The notes under the pieces: generated by a model | Database searches by the model: none | What the model was told of the DNA's origin: nothing | The model's input: only the letters and a program-made list of their open reading frames with translations | Program-made: the position numbers and the translations under genes | Shown: positions 19,194 to 40,574 of the stretch, piece after piece | Layout: each line of letters starts with the position of its first letter | How positions within the stretch are numbered: position 1 is the stretch's first letter | Assembly: GCF_017832975.1 (NCBI RefSeq) | Contig: NZ_JAFIBI010000001.1 | Span: 1,736,001 to 1,800,000, forward strand | Length of the DNA stretch: 64,000 bases | Source of the DNA: Arthrobacter sp. PvP023 | GTDB lineage: Bacteria; Actinomycetota; Actinomycetes; Actinomycetales; Micrococcaceae | Reading direction: 5' to 3'

Positions 19194-20279
19194 GTGTCTT
19201 CAAATCCGATTCGTGTTGCCATCGTCGGTGTGGGTAACTGCGCCGCGTCCCTGGTCCAGGGTGTCCACTACTACCGGGATGCCGACCCCCAGGCCACGAT
19301 TCCCGGTCTGATGCACGTGGAGTTCGGCGAGTACCACGTCAACGATGTTGAATTCGTTGCAGCCTTCGATGTTGACGGCAAGAAGGTCGGCGTTGACCTG
19401 GCCGACGCCATCCTGGCCAGCGAAAACAACACCATCAAGATCGCCGACGTTCCGCCCACCGGCGTAACGGTCCAGCGCGGCCACACCCTGGACGGCCTCG
19501 GCAAGTACTACCTCGAGACCATTGAGCAGTCCCCGGCGGAGCCGGTCGATGTTGTCCAGGCCCTGAAGGACGCCAAAGTTGACGTCATGGTCTGCTACCT
19601 GCCCGTTGGATCGCAGGAAGCCGCCGAATTCTACGCACAGGCCGCAATCGACGCCGGCGTGGCGTTCGTCAACGCCCTGCCGGTGTTCATCGCCGGAACC
19701 AAGGAATGGGCGGACAAGTTCACTGCCGCCGGTGTCCCGATCGTGGGCGACGACATCAAGAGCCAGATTGGTGCCACCATCACGCACCGCGTCATGGCCA
19801 AGCTCTTCGAAGACCGCGGCGTCACGCTGGACCGCACCTACCAGCTCAACGTCGGCGGCAACATGGACTTCAAGAACATGCTGGAGCGCGACCGCCTCGA
19901 GTCCAAGAAGATCTCCAAGACCCAGGCCGTTACGTCCAACGTTGAAGCTGAACTGGCTGCCAAGGACGTGCACATCGGCCCGTCCGACTACGTCCAGTGG
20001 CTCGACGACCGCAAGTGGGCCTTCGTGCGCCTCGAAGGACGCAACTTCGGCGACGCCCCCGTGTCGCTCGAATACAAGCTGGAGGTCTGGGACTCACCGA
20101 ACTCCGCCGGCGTGATCATCGACGCCATCCGCGCGGCCAAGATCGGCCTGGACCGCGGCATCGGGGGCCCGCTGCTCTCGGCGTCCAGCTACTTCATGAA
20201 GTCCCCGCCGGAGCAGTTCAACGACGACCTCGCCCGTGAAAAGGTCGAGGCCTTCATCCGCGGAGACCTGGAGCGCTAA
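19194..20279 (+). CDS. ino1: Inositol-3-phosphate synthase
   Basis: 361 residues from a GTG 4 bases after AAAGGAG, close in length to mycobacterial Ino1. It converts glucose-6-phosphate to 1L-myo-inositol-1-phosphate (also named D-inositol-3-phosphate) using NAD. Visible features are the NAD-binding [27 protein letters not shown], the active-site [21 protein letters not shown], and [17 protein letters not shown]. In actinobacteria the product feeds phosphatidylinositol and mycothiol; MshA, the next mycothiol enzyme, is encoded at 27.9-29.2 kb beyond an accessory block. The stop codon is followed within 22 bases by a 32-bp repeat array. Confidence 0.97.
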
Positions 20280-20300
20280 ACTCTTCCGTTCCCCCCGCGC

Positions 20301-20395
20301 GATGCTCTCTCACTTGTGGTGGGTTTTGCCGCGATGCTCTCTCACTTTTGGTCGGTTTTGGCGCGATGCTCTCTCACTTCTGGTGGGGGAGCGTC
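20301..20395 (+). repeat. 32-bp tandem repeat array 1 (3 units)
   Basis: Units start at 20301, 20333 and 20365, an exact 32-base period. Each begins GATGCTCTCTCACTT and the first two continue with a TGGTnGGTTTTG-like half; the third degenerates in its second half. The array lies between the stop codons of ino1 (plus) and the MerR-like gene (minus), in the orientation of ino1. Unit 2 matches the middle unit of array 2 (25001-25032) at 29 of 32 positions by my count. There are no spacers, so it is not CRISPR. Confidence 0.9.
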
Positions 20396-20400
20396 GCGCT

Positions 20401-21024
20401 TTAAACGTCATTCTCATATCGGCGGATGGCGTGGCTGGCCTGTGCGAAAGCAAGGAGCTTGAGCAGCAGCCGGCTGTGCATGTGCATCCCGACTGCGGCC
20501 GTGAGAATAAGCTGGTCGACGCTGTCCGGGGCCGTCGTGGCCGCGATGTCGATCCCTGCGACGTCATCCATAGCCTTGCTGTACGTGCCCAGCACCTCAG
20601 GAGAGACACGGATGTTGAGGCTCTCCATGAGCGCCAGGTGGGCATTCAGTGCGTTCCGGGCGTCACTCGGGTAATCGGGCCAGCCCCGAAGACGTACGAC
20701 GGCGTCAGCCGCCGGTGTGCCGACGCTGCCACCCGCTGTGGCGGAGGTGTCCAGCTCCAGCACCACGCGCTGGACTGCCGCCAGCAGGTCGAGCCGCGGC
20801 GCGCCGTCGTCGGCCATTCCGAGGAGGCCGCGGATCTGTTCGATGTTCAGTCCGACTATCCGGCGGAGCGCCTGGATCAATTCGAGCCGCTCGACGTGCC
20901 GCGCCGAATACTGCGCGCGGGTTGCGTGGACGGCGGCCCCGGCGGGCAACAGGCCCTCGCGCAGGTAGTACTTGATGCTGGCGGCCGAGACTCCCGACCG
21001 CTCGCTGAGTTCCTTAAGCTGCAT
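20401..21024 (-). CDS. MerR-family transcriptional regulator
   Basis: 207 residues. The start MQLKELSERSGVSAASIKYY was chosen because AGAAGG lies 6 bases upstream; 18 further upstream codons are open. Residues 1-70 form the MerR winged helix-turn-helix (SGVSAASIKYYLREGLLPAG, then VERLELIQALRRIVGLNIEQIRGLL). The rest, about 135 residues, is a helical effector domain I cannot assign; it has no Cys cluster for metals. The likely role is local transcription control, ligand unknown. It is convergent with ino1, with repeat array 1 between the stops, and marks the start of the accessory block. Confidence 0.85.
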   Translation of the reverse strand: MQLKELSERSGVSAASIKYYLREGLLPAGAAVHATRAQYSARHVERLELIQALRRIVGLNIEQIRGLLGMADDGAPRLDLLAAVQRVVLELDTSATAGGSVGTPAADAVVRLRGWPDYPSDARNALNAHLALMESLNIRVSPEVLGTYSKAMDDVAGIDIAATTAPDSVDQLILTAAVGMHMHSRLLLKLLAFAQASHAIRRYENDV

Positions 21025-21141
21025 CCGCGCCTTCTTTGGTCGGAAGCCGGGTCCGTTGGATAGTGGGTCCGGCGGCAACTATCCTGATGTACACAGACTG
21101 GATAGGGCGGTTTCCAACGATCGTCGCAACGGCTCCATTTG

Positions 21142-21170
21142 AAGGGCAACCATATCGCTCGGTTGCCCTT
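21142..21170. other. Hairpin in a 500-base gene-poor stretch
   Basis: AAGGGCAACC (21142-21151) and GGTTGCCCTT (21161-21170) form a perfect 10-bp stem with a 9-base loop. Short A/T runs flank both arms, so it may terminate transcription in either direction. Apart from this, 21025-21528 shows no convincing gene; the small open frames there lack start signals and family-like sequence. Confidence 0.45.
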
Positions 21171-21528
21171 TGCCGGCCTGACCGCGCCCACGACGGCTGC
21201 CGGATTACAGTGCCGCAGAAGGCCCCGTGACCGTGCGGTTAACCGGACAGGTTCTATGGGAGTTCTACGGTCGCGCAAACGAGACTAAATCCGGCCATGA
21301 AGTAGTCCGGCAGTCTGCCCGGATCAGGGACCGGCTAACGGGACGGTCTGAACGGGCGGGTATGCGAGAAATGTTTCGCTGTGTTTCGTGAGGTGGTGGG
21401 CCCGCCCGGGTGCCCGGAAGGGTACCTCGGGTTTTGAGAGCGTTCCCGAAACAAACGCTTCAAGTCCATTCTGTCTGCGCATGTGGCCCGCTAAACTCGC
21501 TTGTACTAACGAGGTTGGGGGAACCGAA

Positions 21529-21825
21529 ATGAGTACGCCTATGGTGCCGGCTCGCACAGCAACTGGACGACCAAACAAACTGGCCCTTGCGGCCATCATT
21601 TTCGCCGTCATCGCTGCCTCAGGATTCTGGGTATTCGGCGTCGCGGTTCTCGCTGTTTTTGCAGTCGGGGCCGGACACGTTGCCCTCAATCAGATCCCTC
21701 TGAGAGGCGAAAGTGGCCGTGGGCTAGCCATCGCTGCCCTGGTCATTGGGTATGGCATAGCCACGCTGGCATTGATCAACACTCTGGCGTTCATACCAAG
21801 CGCGGTCCAGCAGATCTCAATGTAG
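21529..21825 (+). CDS. Small DUF4190-like membrane protein
   Basis: 98 residues from the ATG of MSTPMVPARTATGRPNKLAL, with GGGGGA 7 bases upstream. Two membrane helices (about 20-50 and 68-90) are joined by GAGHVALNQI and RGESGRGLAIAALVIGYG, the pattern of DUF4190 proteins. A Thr/Pro-rich cytoplasmic start precedes them. Function is unknown; such proteins are often fused or adjacent to secretion or stress functions. It is the only plus-strand gene between the MerR-like regulator and the DUF2306 gene and seems to be its own unit. Confidence 0.75.
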   Translation: MSTPMVPARTATGRPNKLALAAIIFAVIAASGFWVFGVAVLAVFAVGAGHVALNQIPLRGESGRGLAIAALVIGYGIATLALINTLAFIPSAVQQISM

Positions 21826-21938
21826 CGCTGCGGCTGACGAGCCTAGCCGCCAGCCTTGACCCTAATTCCTCGGAACAACGGCGTGGACTGTCCCGAAAGG
21901 GATTCGGCTTAGTGCAAAGGCTCAGCCGGCCATTCTCG

Positions 21939-22139
21939 TCAACGCCTGCGGGTTTGCCTTGTACTAAGCCCCTCTACGTCTCCGGCCCGACGGGCCCTGA
22001 ACCTGATGACCAAAACTAGAATCCCCAACAAGAGCGCTAGCGTGACGCCTTCGAGGATTATTACCCACGAATCAAGGTAAATGCCCGTCACGATCAAGAC
22101 GAACCCAATGGCGATCAGGACATACAGCATTTTGATCAT
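21939..22139 (-). CDS. Small two-helix membrane protein, unknown function
   Basis: 66 residues, starting MIKMLYVLIAIGFVLIVTGI, with AGAGGAG about 6 bases before the ATG. Two hydrophobic helices (about 4-23 and 27-47) are followed by a strongly basic tail (RFRARRAGDVEGLSTRQTRR) expected to stay in the cytoplasm. I do not recognise a family. The clear ribosome binding site and topology support a real gene. Base composition is lower in GC than the surrounding core genes. Confidence 0.65.
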   Translation of the reverse strand: MIKMLYVLIAIGFVLIVTGIYLDSWVIILEGVTLALLLGILVLVIRFRARRAGDVEGLSTRQTRRR

Positions 22140-22414
22140 GTTCTAACTCCTCTTTGCCGCAGTTGCCGTTCTGCGGTCGAGCGCGTGTCCTCAAACTGAC
22201 CTGATGCGCGCCGCCTTCGGCCTGCGCTCAGGGAACCCGTCCTGCTATTCAAAGACTACCCACGAGACATTCTCGGGGAATGAGTGCGGGATACCTGCTT
22301 TTCTGCACGTCGGCGGTAGTGCCCGTGGCTGGATATCTGCCCAAGGTAGCCTTCGGCCCGGGATACTCGTTCCACGCCATGGCAGCCCCATTTTCGTGCT
22401 CACGACTCAGACCG

Positions 22415-22999
22415 CCATTTCCGCCCCGGTCAGGGTTCCCTCGCTGACCCTTTTACGGCACGGAGATTCAGAGAGATCAATAGTTAGGTCGAACCCAATC
22501 GGTGATTGGCGCGAACCCAACTTCGCTTTCCCTCACAAGTGGGCCGCCGAACTCGATTTCGGTCAGTATGGTGACATCACCGAGTATTGCCAGCCTCTCG
22601 ACAATGCCGGTGAGGCTATTGACGACGGCCGTGGCGCGGAAAGCGGGGTCGTTAACGTGCTCGAACGTAATAAGCAACGACTGCTGACCGACCTCCTGGA
22701 CGAGCATTGGGTAGAAACTTTCACTTGGACGGCCCCACATTAAGAGCGATTCGGGGTGAAGCATTTGAACCGGGGTCGGCATGCCGCGAGGGAACACGAC
22801 CGCCCGCGGCGCCCAAGAAGTTCACCGCGATGCCGGTCCTCCGAAGGGAGAGCAAATCACACAGCCTGGGACGTCGCTGACGGCTGACGTTCTCCTCTAA
22901 CTGAGCCCGGTCAAGGTAGCTATCGCCCTAAACGACCAATTCCCGGTAACAACTGGTGCTACCCGTCGGAGACCCATTTTTCGGCCCGGTCAGGGTTCC
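22415..22999. repeat. Pair of short imperfect direct repeats about 560 bp apart
   Basis: 22415-22439 and 22974-22999 both read CCATTT, a few variable bases, then CCCGGTCAGGGTTCC. The exact shared 3' part is 15 bases. They flank the possible small gene in this stretch. They could be relics of a duplication or of a lost element. Confidence 0.4.
22477..22797 (-). CDS. Hypothetical protein, possibly the remains of a frameshifted gene
   Basis: 106 residues from a GTG, or 101 from the ATG at 22782. Neither start has a convincing ribosome binding site. The sequence looks protein-like (MPTPVQMLHPESLLMWGRPS, then LLITFEHVNDPAFRATAVVN and GGPLVRESEVGFAPITDW) with a balanced composition, but I know no family. 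A stop lies 9 codons before the GTG. In another frame a GTG at 22825 follows a GGAGG (22838-22842, minus) and reads VNFLGAAGGRV before it would need a frameshift into this frame. It may therefore be a broken gene. Codon third positions are less GC-rich than in core genes. Confidence 0.4.
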   Translation of the reverse strand: MFPRGMPTPVQMLHPESLLMWGRPSESFYPMLVQEVGQQSLLITFEHVNDPAFRATAVVNSLTGIVERLAILGDVTILTEIEFGGPLVRESEVGFAPITDWVRPNY

Positions 23000-23036
23000 G
23001 GAACGAGAGTCCCGGCACAACACGTTGCCGTCCACG

Positions 23037-24426
23037 GTTGGGGTCAATTCGGGTTATCCAGGGCTGGGAATGGGGAGCCATTGGGGTAGCTCCCTGGTAG
23101 CCGTAGCGGTGGATAACTCATAAAGGATTGTCCCCGGCTGTGGGCGGAGGAAGCGTGCCCTCGGTGCCGCTGGAAATCGCAGTGTTCTGAAGCGCGGCAA
23201 TGGTTTGGAGGGAAGTAAACCGGACGGTTGCACTGTTCCACGCGAGGACGGCACGGGGCCGACCGTTGATCTCGTCCGCGGCGAAGCGGACATCGGCTGG
23301 TTCTACCGTGCTGAGGTCGGCTCCTTTCCGGAAGTATTGGCGGAGCAGACCGTTGGCGTTCTCGTTCGAAGCCCGTTGCCAGGGGCTGGCAGGATCACAG
23401 AAGTAGACGAGCGTACCGAGCGCTACAGTCACCTCGGCGTGCCTGGCCATTTCGGAACCCCGGTCCCAGGTCAATGTTCTCCGCAGTGTGGCCGGCAGGA
23501 CTCCGAGAACTTCTATGAGCCGGTCGCGCATGACGTCAGACCTGATCCCTGGCGGAAGCGCAAAGGCGATGAGGAACCGTGAGGACCGTTCCACCAGGGT
23601 GACTATCGCGGACTTGTTCGCCTTCCCCATGATGAGATCGCCTTCCCAGTGGCCTGCCTCCTCCCGGGTGGCAATATGGGCCGGCCGATCCCCGATCTTC
23701 AGGGCATCGGTGATGTATTGGCGAGGCTTCACCTTGGTCCGCGACCGCGGGCGCCGGCTGTATTTTCCGGAACGCAACAGCCGGGCAGAGCCCGATGGGA
23801 CAGGGCGAATGCTCAGGCCGTAAAGCGCGCGGTAGATCGTTTCGTGGACCAAATGTCTGTGGAGTTCGCCTGGAAACCGTTCCTTCAGCGCCCGGCAGAC
23901 CTGTTGCGGGCTCCATCGCTTCGACAGGCATTCCACGACGTACTGCCGCAGGTCGGCGTCACCGGTCAGCTTGGAAAGCCGGGGTCTCGGGCGTCTCTTC
24001 TGCGCCATTTTCTGGGCACGGAACGGATGATAGCGGCGGGAGTCAGGACGGTTTCGGGCTAACTCCCTGCTGATCGTGGACGCCGAACGCCCAAGCTCCC
24101 GGGCGATGGATCGAAGGCTTGCACGGGCCAATAGACGGTCGGCAATGAAGATGCGTTCATCTTCTGATAAGTAACGGAGGGATCCGCCGGCCGCAGGCAC
24201 CGCGACGCGCGGCCTCGGATCCAAACCTTGCTGGATCAAGCCCTCCACACCGTTGCGTCCATGCAACCAGTGATGGCCTGTGTTCCGGCCTATGCCGAGG
24301 ACCCTGCAGGCCTCGGAGTTGGAATATCCCTGCTTCATCAGCTGAACGTACAAGGGCTTCTTCTCAACCAAGCCCTCTGGGCCCATTTTCCTCGATCGGC
24401 GCGTCGAACTGCGCATGAATCAACAC
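23037..24426 (-). mobile_element. IS30-family insertion sequence (ends approximate)
   Basis: The element contains the transposase gene at 23118-24416. I could not prove its terminal inverted repeats. A weak candidate pair is GGGGTCAATTCGGG near 23041 and, read inward on the minus strand, GGTGTTGATTCATG near 24430, matching at about 9 of 16 positions. The limits given are therefore only a guess around the gene. Confidence 0.45.
23118..24416 (-). CDS. IS30-family transposase
   Basis: 432 residues, apparently intact. The N-terminal part has helix-turn-helix regions (LMKQGYSNSEACRVLGIGRN; LRSIARELGRSASTISREL), and the C-terminal DDE catalytic core is recognisable: Asp in HWEGDLIMGK, Asp in LTWDRGSEMA, and Glu in SNENANGLLRQYF. 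IS30 enzymes move their element through circular intermediates. The gene lies inside the accessory block; the length exceeds many IS30 transposases, as in the longer actinobacterial members with an extra N-terminal domain. It does not interrupt a recognisable gene. Confidence 0.95.
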   Translation of the reverse strand: MRSSTRRSRKMGPEGLVEKKPLYVQLMKQGYSNSEACRVLGIGRNTGHHWLHGRNGVEGLIQQGLDPRPRVAVPAAGGSLRYLSEDERIFIADRLLARASLRSIARELGRSASTISRELARNRPDSRRYHPFRAQKMAQKRRPRPRLSKLTGDADLRQYVVECLSKRWSPQQVCRALKERFPGELHRHLVHETIYRALYGLSIRPVPSGSARLLRSGKYSRRPRSRTKVKPRQYITDALKIGDRPAHIATREEAGHWEGDLIMGKANKSAIVTLVERSSRFLIAFALPPGIRSDVMRDRLIEVLGVLPATLRRTLTWDRGSEMARHAEVTVALGTLVYFCDPASPWQRASNENANGLLRQYFRKGADLSTVEPADVRFAADEINGRPRAVLAWNSATVRFTSLQTIAALQNTAISSGTEGTLPPPTAGDNPL

Positions 24427-24486
24427 CACTTTCAGTCGGTGTTGCGACGTTGGTGAGAAACCGCCTAGTGCCTCTACCCTAAAGCT

Positions 24487-24996
24487 ATGGAGCCCTGGAA
24501 TGTACTGCTAGTCAGCCATGTGATCGCAGCGCTGTTCGTCCTTGTGATTGGCCCCTTTCAGATTCTTCGACGGCGCCGCGACCGCATCCACCGCACCATG
24601 GGATACCTCTGGGTGGCGGCCATGTACTACGTCTGCTTCAGTAGTTTCTGGATTGTGACCGCAGAACATTTCACCTGGTTGCACGGGCTGTCCGCCTTCA
24701 CCATCGTGACTGTTACCCTCGGCCTTGTCAGTGCAATTCGCCGTAACGTTCCGTCGCACCTGGGCAACATGGTGGGCAGCTACGTCGGCATTGCCGTGGC
24801 CTTCATTTTTGCCGTCGCCGTCCCGGGGCGGGCGATCCCGCAACTTCTTGCCGAGGACCCGGCCACCGCGGCGTACGTCGCCGGTCTGGTGGTGCTAAGC
24901 GTCGTGGTGGTCTTCGTTTCGCTCAAGCGCGGTGGCCGTGCGGGGGTGGGGGCCAAGGTGAAGGACCAAACGCTCTCTCACTCCCTGCAGGTTTAA
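24487..24996 (+). CDS. DUF2306-like membrane protein
   Basis: 169 residues with four predicted membrane helices. The order IHRTMGYLWVAAMYYVCFSS, LHGLSAFTIVTVTLGLVSAI, RRNVPSHLGNMVGSYVGI is typical of DUF2306, whose biochemical role is unknown. TACCCT ends 6 bases before the ATG and no Shine-Dalgarno is present, so a leaderless mRNA is likely. Oddly, the last eight codons (TLSHSLQV) and the stop are made from the first unit of 32-bp repeat array 2, so the natural C-terminus has probably been replaced or extended by the repeat. It is convergent with the DUF559 gene. Confidence 0.8.
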   Translation: MEPWNVLLVSHVIAALFVLVIGPFQILRRRRDRIHRTMGYLWVAAMYYVCFSSFWIVTAEHFTWLHGLSAFTIVTVTLGLVSAIRRNVPSHLGNMVGSYVGIAVAFIFAVAVPGRAIPQLLAEDPATAAYVAGLVVLSVVVVFVSLKRGGRAGVGAKVKDQTLSHSLQV

Positions 24997-25053
24997 GATT
25001 GATCCTCTCTCACTTTTGGCGGGTTTTGGCGCAACGCTCTCTCACCCGGCGTC
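24969..25053 (+). repeat. 32-bp tandem repeat array 2 (3 units)
   Basis: The CTCTCTCAC cores start at 24973, 25005 and 25037, an exact 32-base period. Unit 1 codes for the end of the DUF2306 protein; unit 2 is non-coding and nearly identical to unit 2 of array 1; unit 3 is truncated and covers the stop codon of the convergent DUF559 gene, whose TGA (25044-25042, minus) is part of the GTGAGAGAG complement of the core. Confidence 0.9.
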
Positions 25054-26001
25054 GGCAAAACCGGACGCTTGGGGATGATCGAGCCATGCGGTGCGCAGCA
25101 GTCGTTTGATCTTGCTGACGGCCGGCCGGCAACCATCAGCAAGATCGTCCTTGCCGAGGATCAGGACCGTCCAGCCAGCCGACTCAAATGCTTTGTCCCG
25201 CCGTCGGTCGCTGAAGATCTGGGCGTCGAGAAGGTGATGTTCGCCGTCATACTGGATGGCGAGACGCCGATGACGGTAGCCCAGATCGGCCGTCGGCGAA
25301 ACGGCATCCGTTGGGCGCAACGCCAACTGGAGCTCCGGCTCAGGGAGGCCGGCGTCGGCCATCGCCAGGCGGAGAAGCGATTCAGGCGCGGAGTCCGCAC
25401 CGACCCGCATGAGGTGCAGCGCCTCCCGGGCGCGTACTACACCCTGCAGGTTTGGGTGGCGGCCAACTAAGGTGCGGAGACCGTCCAAAGTGTCATAAGG
25501 CCGGGTGCGTCCCTCGAACGCCACTCGCGGGACACGGATTAGTTGATCGCCCATGCACACCAGATCGCTCACCGGCAGCCGTCGCGCCAGATCCAGCCAG
25601 GTCCGCGAACGGGTACTGACGCGGAGGCCATCGATCGATTCAATCTCGTCTTCGAGGGCCACCACCGTGTGGCCGATAACGCCGTTGCGGCGCACAGAGG
25701 GCAGGGCCCGGGGCTTGCTCAAGTGCAACTCCGTCGAGTCAGCTAGCCAGGGTGGCAGGAGTTGGCAGTGAAGCCGAGCTGCCGTGACGTGGGATATCCA
25801 AGCCCCTGGCGACGCGGTGGACAACGCCCTTGCCGCGGCCTCCAGTTCGAAGTTCCAGTCTGACGGGCGGTAGAGTCCGCGGCCCACATGAACCACATCT
25901 TTCCGCCGCAGCCTGGCCCTGGAAACTCCGGACGCCCGCGCTGAATCCAACGTGAATGGAGCCGCCGCCAGATGGCCGGGCAATTCGTTGCGCTTTTGCA
26001 T
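25042..26001 (-). CDS. DUF559-type nuclease-like protein with AbiEi-like N-terminus
   Basis: 319 residues. The N-terminal part (FTLDSARASGVSRARLRRKD, VHVGRGLYRPSDW) resembles the winged-helix start of AbiEi-type antitoxin-like proteins. The C-terminal part (about 235-300) has LGYRHRRLAIQYDGEHH, SDRRRDKAFESAGWTVLIL, the pattern of DUF559, a PD-(D/E)XK Vsr-like nuclease fold: Asp in QYDGEHH and a following RRDK. Such genes are common single genes in actinobacteria and their role is not established; a toxin or defence role is possible but unproven. The start is an ATG; its stop codon is formed by the repeat of array 2. Confidence 0.72.
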   Translation of the reverse strand: MQKRNELPGHLAAAPFTLDSARASGVSRARLRRKDVVHVGRGLYRPSDWNFELEAAARALSTASPGAWISHVTAARLHCQLLPPWLADSTELHLSKPRALPSVRRNGVIGHTVVALEDEIESIDGLRVSTRSRTWLDLARRLPVSDLVCMGDQLIRVPRVAFEGRTRPYDTLDGLRTLVGRHPNLQGVVRAREALHLMRVGADSAPESLLRLAMADAGLPEPELQLALRPTDAVSPTADLGYRHRRLAIQYDGEHHLLDAQIFSDRRRDKAFESAGWTVLILGKDDLADGCRPAVSKIKRLLRTAWLDHPQASGFADAG

Positions 26002-26062: not shown

Positions 26063-26180
26063 TCGGGAGGAAGTGAGAGAGCGTCGGGGAAAAACCGGTA
26101 GGGAGTGAGAGAGCGTCTGGGAAAAACCGGCAGGAAGTGAGAGAGCGTCCGGGAAAAGGCGGCAGGAAGTGAGAGAGCGT
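26063..26180 (-). repeat. 32-bp tandem repeat array 3 (4 units, minus orientation)
   Basis: GTGAGAGAG cores start at 26073, 26105, 26137 and 26169, exactly 32 bases apart. Read on the minus strand, the first unit begins at the base after the fhs stop codon as ACGCTCTCTCAC TTCCTGCC and continues with a TTTTTCCC-like stretch. The four units are more alike than those in arrays 1 and 2. The orientation is that of fhs. The rest of 26002-26062 shows no other feature. Confidence 0.93.
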
Positions 26181-27878
26181 CTAGAAGAGGCCCAGGGGCT
26201 TGCCGGTGTCGTCCACGTCCATCCGCAGGGCTGCAGGAACTTTGGGCAGGCCCGGCATGGTCATCACCGCGCCGGTCAGCGCCACGATGAAGCCCGCCCC
26301 GGTCTTGGGGATGAGGTCCCGGACGTGCACCGTGAAGCCTTTCGGCGCACCCAGCTTCGTGGCGTCGTCGCTGAACGAGTACTGGGTCTTGGCCATGCAG
26401 ACGGGCATGCCGGCCCAGCCGTTCTTCTCGATTTCGGCCAGGCGTTTGAGCGCTGGCACGGAGAAGTCCACGCCGTCGGCCCCGTACATTTCCTGCACGA
26501 TGGTGCGGATCTTGTCCTCCACAGACAGGTCCAGCGGATACAGGTGCCGGAAAGTGTGCGGGGCATCAAGGGCTGCGAGCACCTTCGCCGCGAGTTCGTC
26601 GCCGCCGTCCCCGCCGCCGCCCCGGCCCCAGACGTCGGCCACCGCGGCCTGCACTCCTTCGCCGGCGCACCACTCCAGCAGCCAGTCCAGCTCCTCCCGG
26701 GTGTCCGTCGCGAACTTGTTGACGGCCACCACGGGAGTGATTCCAAACTTCTCCACGTTGCGGATGTGCCGCCGGAGATTTGCCGTGCCGGCGGCCAGCG
26801 CCTCCACGTTGGGCTCCTTCAGCCGGTCCTTTGCCACCCCGCCGTGCATCTTCAGCGCCCGGACCGTGGCCACAAGCACGACGGCGGACGGCGCCACGTC
26901 TGCCACCCTCGCCTTGATATCCATGAACTTTTCGGCCCCCAGGTCGGCCCCGAAGCCGGCTTCGGTGACCACGATGTCCGCGAGCCGGCGGGCGGTCTGG
27001 GTGGCGATCAGCGAGTTGCAGCCGTGTGCGATGTTGGCGAACGGGCCGCCGTGCACCAGGGCTGGGGTCCCGGCGATGGTCTGCACGAGGTTGGGTTTGA
27101 TCGCATCCCTGAGCAGCATGGTCAGTGCGCCCTGGACGCCGAGGTCCGCCACCGTGACGGGTTCGCGGTCGTAGGTATAGCCGAAGGTGATGCGGCCCAG
27201 CCGGGCACGGAGATCGGCGATGTCCGTGGCCAGGCAGAACACCGCCATGATCTCCGAAGCCACGGTGATGTCGAAGCCGTCCTGCCGCGGGACGCCCTGG
27301 GCCGGTCCGCCGAGGCCAATGACCACTTCGCGGAGGGAGCGGTCATTCATATCCAGGACCCGCTTGAAGGTCATCCTGCGGGGATCGATGTTGAGTTCGT
27401 TGCCCTGGAAAATATGGTTGTCCACCAGGGCCATGAGTGCGTTGTTCGCCGAGGTGATGGCGTGGAAGTCGCCGGTGAAGTGCAGGTTGATTTCCTCCAT
27501 GGGCAGCACCTGGGAGTAGCCCCCTCCGGTGGCCCCGCCCTTCATGCCCAGCACGGGACCCAGGGACGGCTCGCGCAGGGCAATCATCACCTTCCGGCCC
27601 GCCCGGGCCAGGGAATCCGCCAGGCCCACCGTGGTGGTGGACTTCCCCTCGCCCGCCGGAGTGGGGGACATCGCCGAGACAAGCACCACCTTGCCCGGCA
27701 GGCGGTCCGGTGCCCCTGCCGGAGCCACAAGCTTCGCCGGATCGATCTTCGCCTTGTACCGGCCATAGAGTTCCACGGCGTCGGCGTTGATGCCTGCCGC
27801 GGCTGCGATGTCACCGATGGGCCGCATGGTGGCGCGCTGGGCGATTTCCAGGTCACTCATGACGTTGTTGTCAGACAT
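26181..27878 (-). CDS. fhs: Formate--tetrahydrofolate ligase
   Basis: 565 residues, the normal family length. The enzyme makes 10-formyltetrahydrofolate from formate, tetrahydrofolate and ATP for one-carbon metabolism. The P-loop [10 protein letters not shown] is at residues 71-80, followed by [34 protein letters not shown] and the C-terminal [15 protein letters not shown] lies 6 bases before the ATG. It is the second of two same-strand genes (63 bases after mshA). Its stop codon directly abuts repeat array 3. Note that a long open frame on the opposite strand is only its shadow. Confidence 0.97.
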
Positions 27879-39687: not shown

Positions 39688-40518
39688 GTGCCAATTCTGA
39701 ATAAAGACATGACCCTGTGCATCTCGCTCTCGGCCCGGCCGAGCAACAACGGGACACGCTTCCACAACCATCTTTATGAGCAGCTGGGCCTGAACTGGAT
39801 CTACAAGGCTTTCGCCCCAACGGACCTGGCGCAGGCCATCGCCGGCGTCAGGGGCCTGGGCATCCGGGGCTGCGCTGTGTCCATGCCGTACAAGGAAGAC
39901 GTCATCGCGCTGGTTGACGCTATGGACCCCTCCGCCAAGGCCATCGATTCCGTCAACACGATCGTGAATGACGGAGGCCGGCTCACGGCCTACAACACCG
40001 ACTACACGGCCATCGAGCAGCTGCTGCAGCGCAACGCCGTCCCCACCGACTACTCAGTGCTGCTCAAGGGTTCCGGCGGCATGGCCAAAGCCACCGCCGC
40101 CGCCCTCCGTGATGCGGGATTCACGAACGTCACCATCGTCGCCCGGAACGAGGCGTCCGGTAAGCCGCTGGCGGACCTCTACGGCTTCGCGTGGATCCCC
40201 GAGCTGCCGGCAGCGGATGCGGGCGGAACGGCGGACATGATCATCAACGTCACGCCCGTCGGCATGGCGGGAGGGCCGGATGCCGACTCGCTGTCCTTCC
40301 CGCAGGAGGCAGTGGACGCCGCGAAGGTGGTGTTCGACGTCGTCGCGCTGCCCGCCGAGACGCCGCTCATCAAGGCGGCCCGCACCGCCGGCAAGACCGT
40401 GATCACCGGCGCGGAAGTCGCCACCATCCAGGCCCTGGAGCAGTTTGTGCTCTACACCGGCGTCCGGCCCACCGACGAGCAGGTCCGGGCGGCAGAAGAG
40501 TTCATGCGGGCCCAGTAG
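39688..40518 (+). CDS. Shikimate dehydrogenase-like protein (AroE family)
   Basis: 276 residues. SMPYKEDVIALVD carries the catalytic Lys of the AroE family, SVNTIVNDGGRLTAYNTDYT the substrate-binding motif, and LLKGSGGMAKATAAALRDAG the NADP-binding loop. The substrate-pocket start (LCISLSARPSNNGTRFHNHL) differs from canonical AroE (usually Ser-x-Ser with HN), so this may be a relative acting on a quinate or shikimate-like compound. The GTG at 39688 was chosen because TTTAAT ends 6 bases upstream. Its stop codon is part of a 14-bp tandem repeat. Confidence 0.85.
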   Translation: MPILNKDMTLCISLSARPSNNGTRFHNHLYEQLGLNWIYKAFAPTDLAQAIAGVRGLGIRGCAVSMPYKEDVIALVDAMDPSAKAIDSVNTIVNDGGRLTAYNTDYTAIEQLLQRNAVPTDYSVLLKGSGGMAKATAAALRDAGFTNVTIVARNEASGKPLADLYGFAWIPELPAADAGGTADMIINVTPVGMAGGPDADSLSFPQEAVDAAKVVFDVVALPAETPLIKAARTAGKTVITGAEVATIQALEQFVLYTGVRPTDEQVRAAEEFMRAQ

Positions 40519-40551
40519 CTTAGGCCCAGTAGCTTAGGGCCAGTCGCTTAG
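40510..40551 (+). repeat. 14-bp tandem repeat across the aroE-like stop codon
   Basis: Three units of GCCCAGTAGCTTAG occupy 40510-40523, 40524-40537 and, with two changes, 40538-40551; a partial fourth follows. The TAG stop of the AroE-like gene (40516-40518) is in the first unit. The rest of the short gap to the convergent methyltransferase gene has no terminator. Confidence 0.85.
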
Positions 40552-40574
40552 GGCCCGGTCGCCTCGGCCCGCAG

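Follow-up and report, generated by a model that had tools for sequence, protein, structure and literature searches.

REP and BIME sequences are dispersed intergenic repeats that stand at the 3' ends of transcription units, often convergent ones, in small arrays whose sequence is specific to a lineage. The MIRU repeats of mycobacteria are intergenic tandem repeats, oriented with the neighboring genes and able to overlap stop codons. In Neisseria, DNA uptake sequences consist of a short motif with lineage dialects, often found as inverted pairs at gene ends. Behind eukaryotic rRNA genes, arrays of TTF-I/Sal-box or Reb1 sites act as protein-roadblock terminators.

This work describes a repeat array, array B, in Arthrobacter sp. 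PvP023 and the family to which it belongs. The window, meaning the whole stretch of 64,000 nucleotides that was analyzed, is G000:C1:1736001-1800000, where G000 denotes the genome, a single contig of 4.71 Mb. We read array B as one member of a dispersed, oriented DNA array family of this genus, whose units are probably same-face sites of a putative, co-evolving DNA-binding protein. No published description of these arrays was found in the literature; PMC12306157 has the 3'-end location of REP/BIME and gyrase cleavage among its references and names Arthrobacter livingstonensis only within a table of REP counts.

Array B and the genes at its edges

The features of the window that are discussed here are as follows.

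20298..20387, minus strand: array A, three units (GTGAGAGAGCA), between a plus-strand gene ending at 20279 and a minus-strand gene ending at 20401
24487..24996, plus strand: gene for a DUF2306 membrane protein (PF10067, E value of 4.5e-13)
24970..24996, plus strand: array-coded end of the DUF2306 gene, TLSHSLQV plus TAA (sequence, with orthologues compared)
24970..25045, minus strand: array B, three units (sequence, 32-bp register)
25042..25044, minus strand: TGA stop of the DUF559-like gene, within the core of unit 3 (sequence, orthologues)
25042..26001, minus strand: DUF559-like (endonuclease-fold) gene, with sub-threshold PF04480 and MTES_1575 matches
26073..26180, plus strand: array C, four units directly 3' of the fhs stop (sequence; kept behind fhs in other species)
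26181..27878, minus strand: fhs, formate-tetrahydrofolate ligase gene (PF01268, E value of 2.3e-257)

The cores of array B lie on the minus strand at 24971-24981, 25003-25013 (with two mismatches), and 25035-25045, at a spacing of exactly 32 bp. An earlier note on this DNA held that unit 1 encodes TLSHSLQV and the stop region of the DUF2306 gene and that unit 3 supplies the TGA of the DUF559-like gene; both statements are right base for base. In unit 1, the core encodes TLSH (ACG CTC TCT CAC, from 24970), and the spacer encodes SLQV and the stop (TCC CTG CAG GTT TAA, to 24996). The TGA that ends the minus-strand open reading frame at 25042-26001 is the complement of 25042-25044 and falls in the unit 3 core (G-TGA-GAGAG); a TGA is part of the GTGAG that is invariant in the array core. 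Of the two family labels, DUF2306 rests on a clear match and DUF559 on a sub-threshold Pfam match (18.2 bits versus a cutoff of 20.6). According to the note, array C starts at the base that follows the fhs stop, and this is exact at the base level: the plus-strand cores start at 26073, 26105, 26137, and 26169, the TAG stop is the complement of 26181-26183, and ACGCTCTCTCAC adjoins it with zero bases between.

The further claim that the repeat had changed at least one C terminus stands for DUF2306 and falls for the DUF559-like protein. A comparison of DUF2306 orthologues had been proposed as the refuting test, and the ends differ where no sense-oriented array is present, so this part of the claim survives. 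In G000 and in genome G020, whose DUF2306 proteins are 87% identical, the tails are array coded (..QTLSHSLQV and ..RTLSHFLRV, respectively), and the stop occupies an equal place in the spacer of unit 1 (TAA and TGA, respectively). In four orthologues that lack a sense-oriented array at this place, the ends are ..DARTGA (G015), ..AGRSQ (G002), ..KARIK (G021), and ..PAGRA (G005); the TGA stop of G021 lies within a core read from the opposite side. Because the protein can be aligned only to about residue 148 and the tail beyond is unconserved in all six orthologues, a functional change of DUF2306 is not implied. The stop of the DUF559-like gene has not been moved by the repeat, as 27 orthologues end within about 2 residues of one place whether a core is present at the stop or not. 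Judged from these sequence comparisons, the array gives coding sequence to one gene (DUF2306, whose tail is free) and merely overlaps the stop of the other. The repeat-encoded C terminus, a minor matter, and the stop overlap with the DUF559-like gene are both by-products of how closely arrays crowd up to stop codons.

Across the window, the 11-mer is matched 9 times at up to one mismatch, versus 1.75 expected. No Rfam family reached its gathering score in the window, and a known structured RNA was rejected on this basis. Arrays B and C were also considered as the bounds of a mobile unit around DUF559-type genes. This candidate was discarded: the G000 paralogues lie mostly away from arrays, and such genes closely follow fhs in many genomes of the genus, with arrays or with none. 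A segment of ∼3.4 kb at 21105-24466, containing an IS30-type transposase gene (23118-24416), separates stretches that are adjacent in G020; a simple exact search gave no clear terminal inverted repeat for it. An unrelated 14-bp tandem repeat, CCAGTAGCTTAGGG, is present in about three copies at 40512-40569.

Spread, placement, and conservation of the family

The family consists of arrays of an 11- to 12-bp core (GTGAGAGAGCGT in this genome) with a 32-bp period, at ∼38 sites in G000 when nearby arrays are grouped. The exact 12-mer AGTGAGAGAGCG occurs 88 times in G000, 44 times per strand, and core pairs at 31 to 33 bp number 66; the reversed pattern gave zero in both searches. A third of the chromosome (G000:C1:1763000-3343000) contains a single one of the ∼38 sites, at 2660 kb. 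The GC skew of G000 is too slight to locate the origin or the terminus, and the contig begins elsewhere than at dnaA.

When one genome per species was scanned, the matches listed all fell in Arthrobacter, Pseudarthrobacter, Paenarthrobacter, or a Micrococcaceae bin, and the exact core formed arrays in 1 of 22 genera among relatives. When dialects of the core were allowed, 72 of 101 sampled genomes of the genus held at least one unit pair (range, 0 to 268 pairs; control, zero). In the plasmid collection, arrays were confined to two large records from one strain, Arthrobacter sp. StoSoilB13 (NZ_AP024648.1 and NZ_AP024649.1, 1.0 to 1.3 Mb, filed as plasmids), which contain several. The viral contigs of IMG/VR gave 0 matches to the two dialects tested, and a phage- or virus-borne repeat was rejected accordingly. 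A CRISPR array was likewise rejected, since spacers within one array are alike and the arrays lie dispersed around the genome.

The arrays stand at 3' ends as a rule, in agreement with the earlier note, at a median distance of 17 bp past the stop (for the 185 arrays that have a gene 3' end on their sense side; genes were called by codon usage, which misses atypical ones). The nearest core lay inside the gene in 6 of the 185 sense-side cases, so coding overlap is rare. Arrays are enriched between convergent genes: the 145 array-bearing intergenic regions comprise 75 convergent, 54 tandem, and 16 divergent ones, versus 131, 356, and 153, respectively, among all 640 intergenic regions of 40 to 600 bp in the same loci. 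Where a tandem region has a one-sided array, that array comes after the upstream stop in 17 of 21 cases. Intrinsic terminators show no clear depletion at array-bearing ends (17% versus 21%). Two pairs of facing arrays, near 1505153-1505459 and 1511540-1511734 of G000:C1, depart from the usual gene-end placement: both are in divergent intergenic regions, in each case next to a gene for a LacI-family regulator.

Array positions are common to G000 and G020. In orthologous arrays, the core is 95.7% identical (727/760), the spacer 74.8% (649/868), and the flanks 87.4%, where the core value is biased upward because most G020 regions were fetched for holding exact cores, and orthologous loci, being from related species, do not count as independent samples. 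Synteny served as the only guide to four of the sites in G020 (349, 544, 610, and 3806 kb), and all four have recognizable arrays, as does the 2660-kb site, which was guessed from synteny plus a listed core. In some synteny-located arrays, the cores have changed in concert, while unit number and spacers vary freely between the orthologous arrays. None of the array sites with a comparable region in G020 was empty there. The suggestion that the repeat had been placed at 3' ends is not borne out: every comparable site has its array, with no empty site or recent insertion. A tandem duplication that arose by chance in simple GAGA-type sequence and has no function would explain why unit number differs between orthologous arrays and why units are alike within arrays. 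We consider it very improbable, as one core recurs at ∼38 unrelated sites with a reversed-pattern control of zero, and the retention of the core far above the spacer contradicts it.

Dialects of the core are genome-wide and differ between species. G071 has GTGAGGGAG in 54 of 55 cores, G002 has mainly GTGAGGAAG, G086 and G073 share GTGAGCGAG, G080 and G000 share GTGAGAGAG, and G061 holds a mix of several variants; the 32-bp period is retained in dialect genomes. The array is kept behind fhs in other species. At that position, different dialects of the array and two inverted-repeat elements substitute for each other, and a 29-species fhs tree (a quick tree with several weak forks) requires at least 13 changes of element or dialect. 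In species with few or no arrays (G069, G014, G075, G066, G024, and G006), inverted pairs of the form TCACTT-N31-AAGTGA, nearly always exactly 43 bp long and with complementary inner arms, number 9 to 29 per genome; this element also takes the place behind fhs in several species. G032, a genome of the GTGAGGGAG dialect, has a few GTGAGAGAG arrays on separate contigs (C168, C176, and C195), which may reflect horizontal transfer or contamination.

These replacements behind fhs are what would be expected of selfish or mobile repeats (REP- or MITE-like) that are spread by some enzyme and tolerated at 3' ends, with dialects as element lineages and arrays built by local duplication. The dispersed copies, the tandem amplification, and the range of unit pairs between species are also consistent with such an origin. 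However, the spacers of different arrays are unrelated, and whole units have therefore not been copied; cores are conserved above their flanks; and G000 shares its array positions with G020. Furthermore, RAYT (Y1_Tnp, PF01797) is absent from G000 and from 60 of 61 genomes of the genus, with control genomes positive, and the viral contigs are free of both dialects searched. We thus regard mobile repeats as an unlikely account of the family.

Phased units and the protein proposed to read them

The unit, which recurs every 32 bp (three helical turns), has a conserved core and a weakly constrained spacer of ∼20 bp that has an A/T tract at its center. Its logo reads GTGAGAGAGCGT-Y-S5-W4-S3-GC-RKR-AA. 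Pooled over 162 loci, the spacing of same-strand cores was 32 bp in 456 cases, 31 bp in 13, and 33 bp in 19. Cores that face one another in the same loci are separated by gaps of 2 to 5, 13 (52 cases), or 23 to 25 bp, a series (∼3, 13, and 24 bp) whose step is one helical turn, and pairs of the other polarity were absent within 150 bp. The best period of the facing gaps is 10.55 bp even without the 13-bp class; further gaps of 34, 45, 66, and 77 bp could stem from ladders in which a core has been lost, such that the independent evidence of phasing is the three short classes. The 13-bp center is two-fold symmetric (TTTCYTNARGAAA) and is present only where two arrays face; the single unit is not palindromic. 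The A/T tract (unit positions 19 to 22) keeps its composition (70 to 91% A/T) while its letters are free, as in DNA-shape readout. An intrinsic terminator was rejected as the identity of the unit, which lacks a hairpin and has AAAA at least as often as TTTT; classic terminators occur at 17% of array ends.

A different way to account for the polarity relative to the upstream gene (17/21) and the short distance to stops is action in RNA, as 3' untranslated region elements. Here, repeated CGCUCUCUCAC sites would be bound by Rho or an RNA-binding protein, or hairpins of facing arrays, which with their 13-bp center could form long stems, would end convergent transcription. The helical steps of the facing gaps and the letter-free A/T tract suit DNA rather than RNA, however; no base-pair covariation or hairpin was detected inside the unit (best z of 2.5); and many arrays are one-sided, with some lying between divergent genes. 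We therefore consider RNA action quite unlikely.

For the phased DNA sites that we favor, a sequence-specific DNA-binding protein would occupy each core, neighboring molecules would bind cooperatively along the same face of the helix, and co-evolution of this putative protein with its sites would give rise to the dialects. The role that we rank first, although doubtful in itself, is that of a polar barrier at gene ends, which would stop or insulate transcription, especially where genes converge. The 16 of 145 divergent sites, including the two in G000 beside LacI-family genes, are not what a pure gene-end barrier would predict. Dispersed intergenic repeats are common in bacteria, and for few is there evidence of one genome-wide factor that reads them. 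Such a factor is suggested here by the helical phasing, by a core conserved amid rapidly changing spacers, and by dialects that extend genome-wide; it would presumably be a protein with recognition residues that follow the dialect. If this factor acts at gene ends, convergent bacterial genes would be separated by bound protein instead of an RNA hairpin.

Comparison with described systems

The arrays resemble REP/BIME in being dispersed, intergenic, often convergent, lineage specific, and located at 3' ends. In contrast to REP/BIME, the unit is neither palindromic nor hairpin forming, and its 32-bp period is strict. Membership in that family was rejected for want of the palindrome and of RAYT, the 3'-end intergenic location being shared. 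Like MIRU repeats, the arrays are intergenic, tandem, and gene oriented and can overlap stops, but MIRU units are longer and conserved over their full length, whereas only the 12-bp core is conserved here. With the DNA uptake sequences of Neisseria, they share a short motif with dialects and inverted pairs at gene ends; copies are far fewer here and are set in 32-bp arrays. The arrays of TTF-I/Sal-box or Reb1 sites are likewise oriented arrays of a short motif behind genes, bound by protein in those systems and putatively so here, although the present arrays are spread over many genes of a bacterium, and the relationship is one of analogy, not homology. On this analogy, it is plausible, if tentative, that a fast co-evolving putative DNA-binding protein, assembled on gene-end arrays that are polar and helically phased at 32 bp and that have their own dialect in each lineage, forms a genus-wide system that is the bacterial counterpart of protein-roadblock terminators or insulators.
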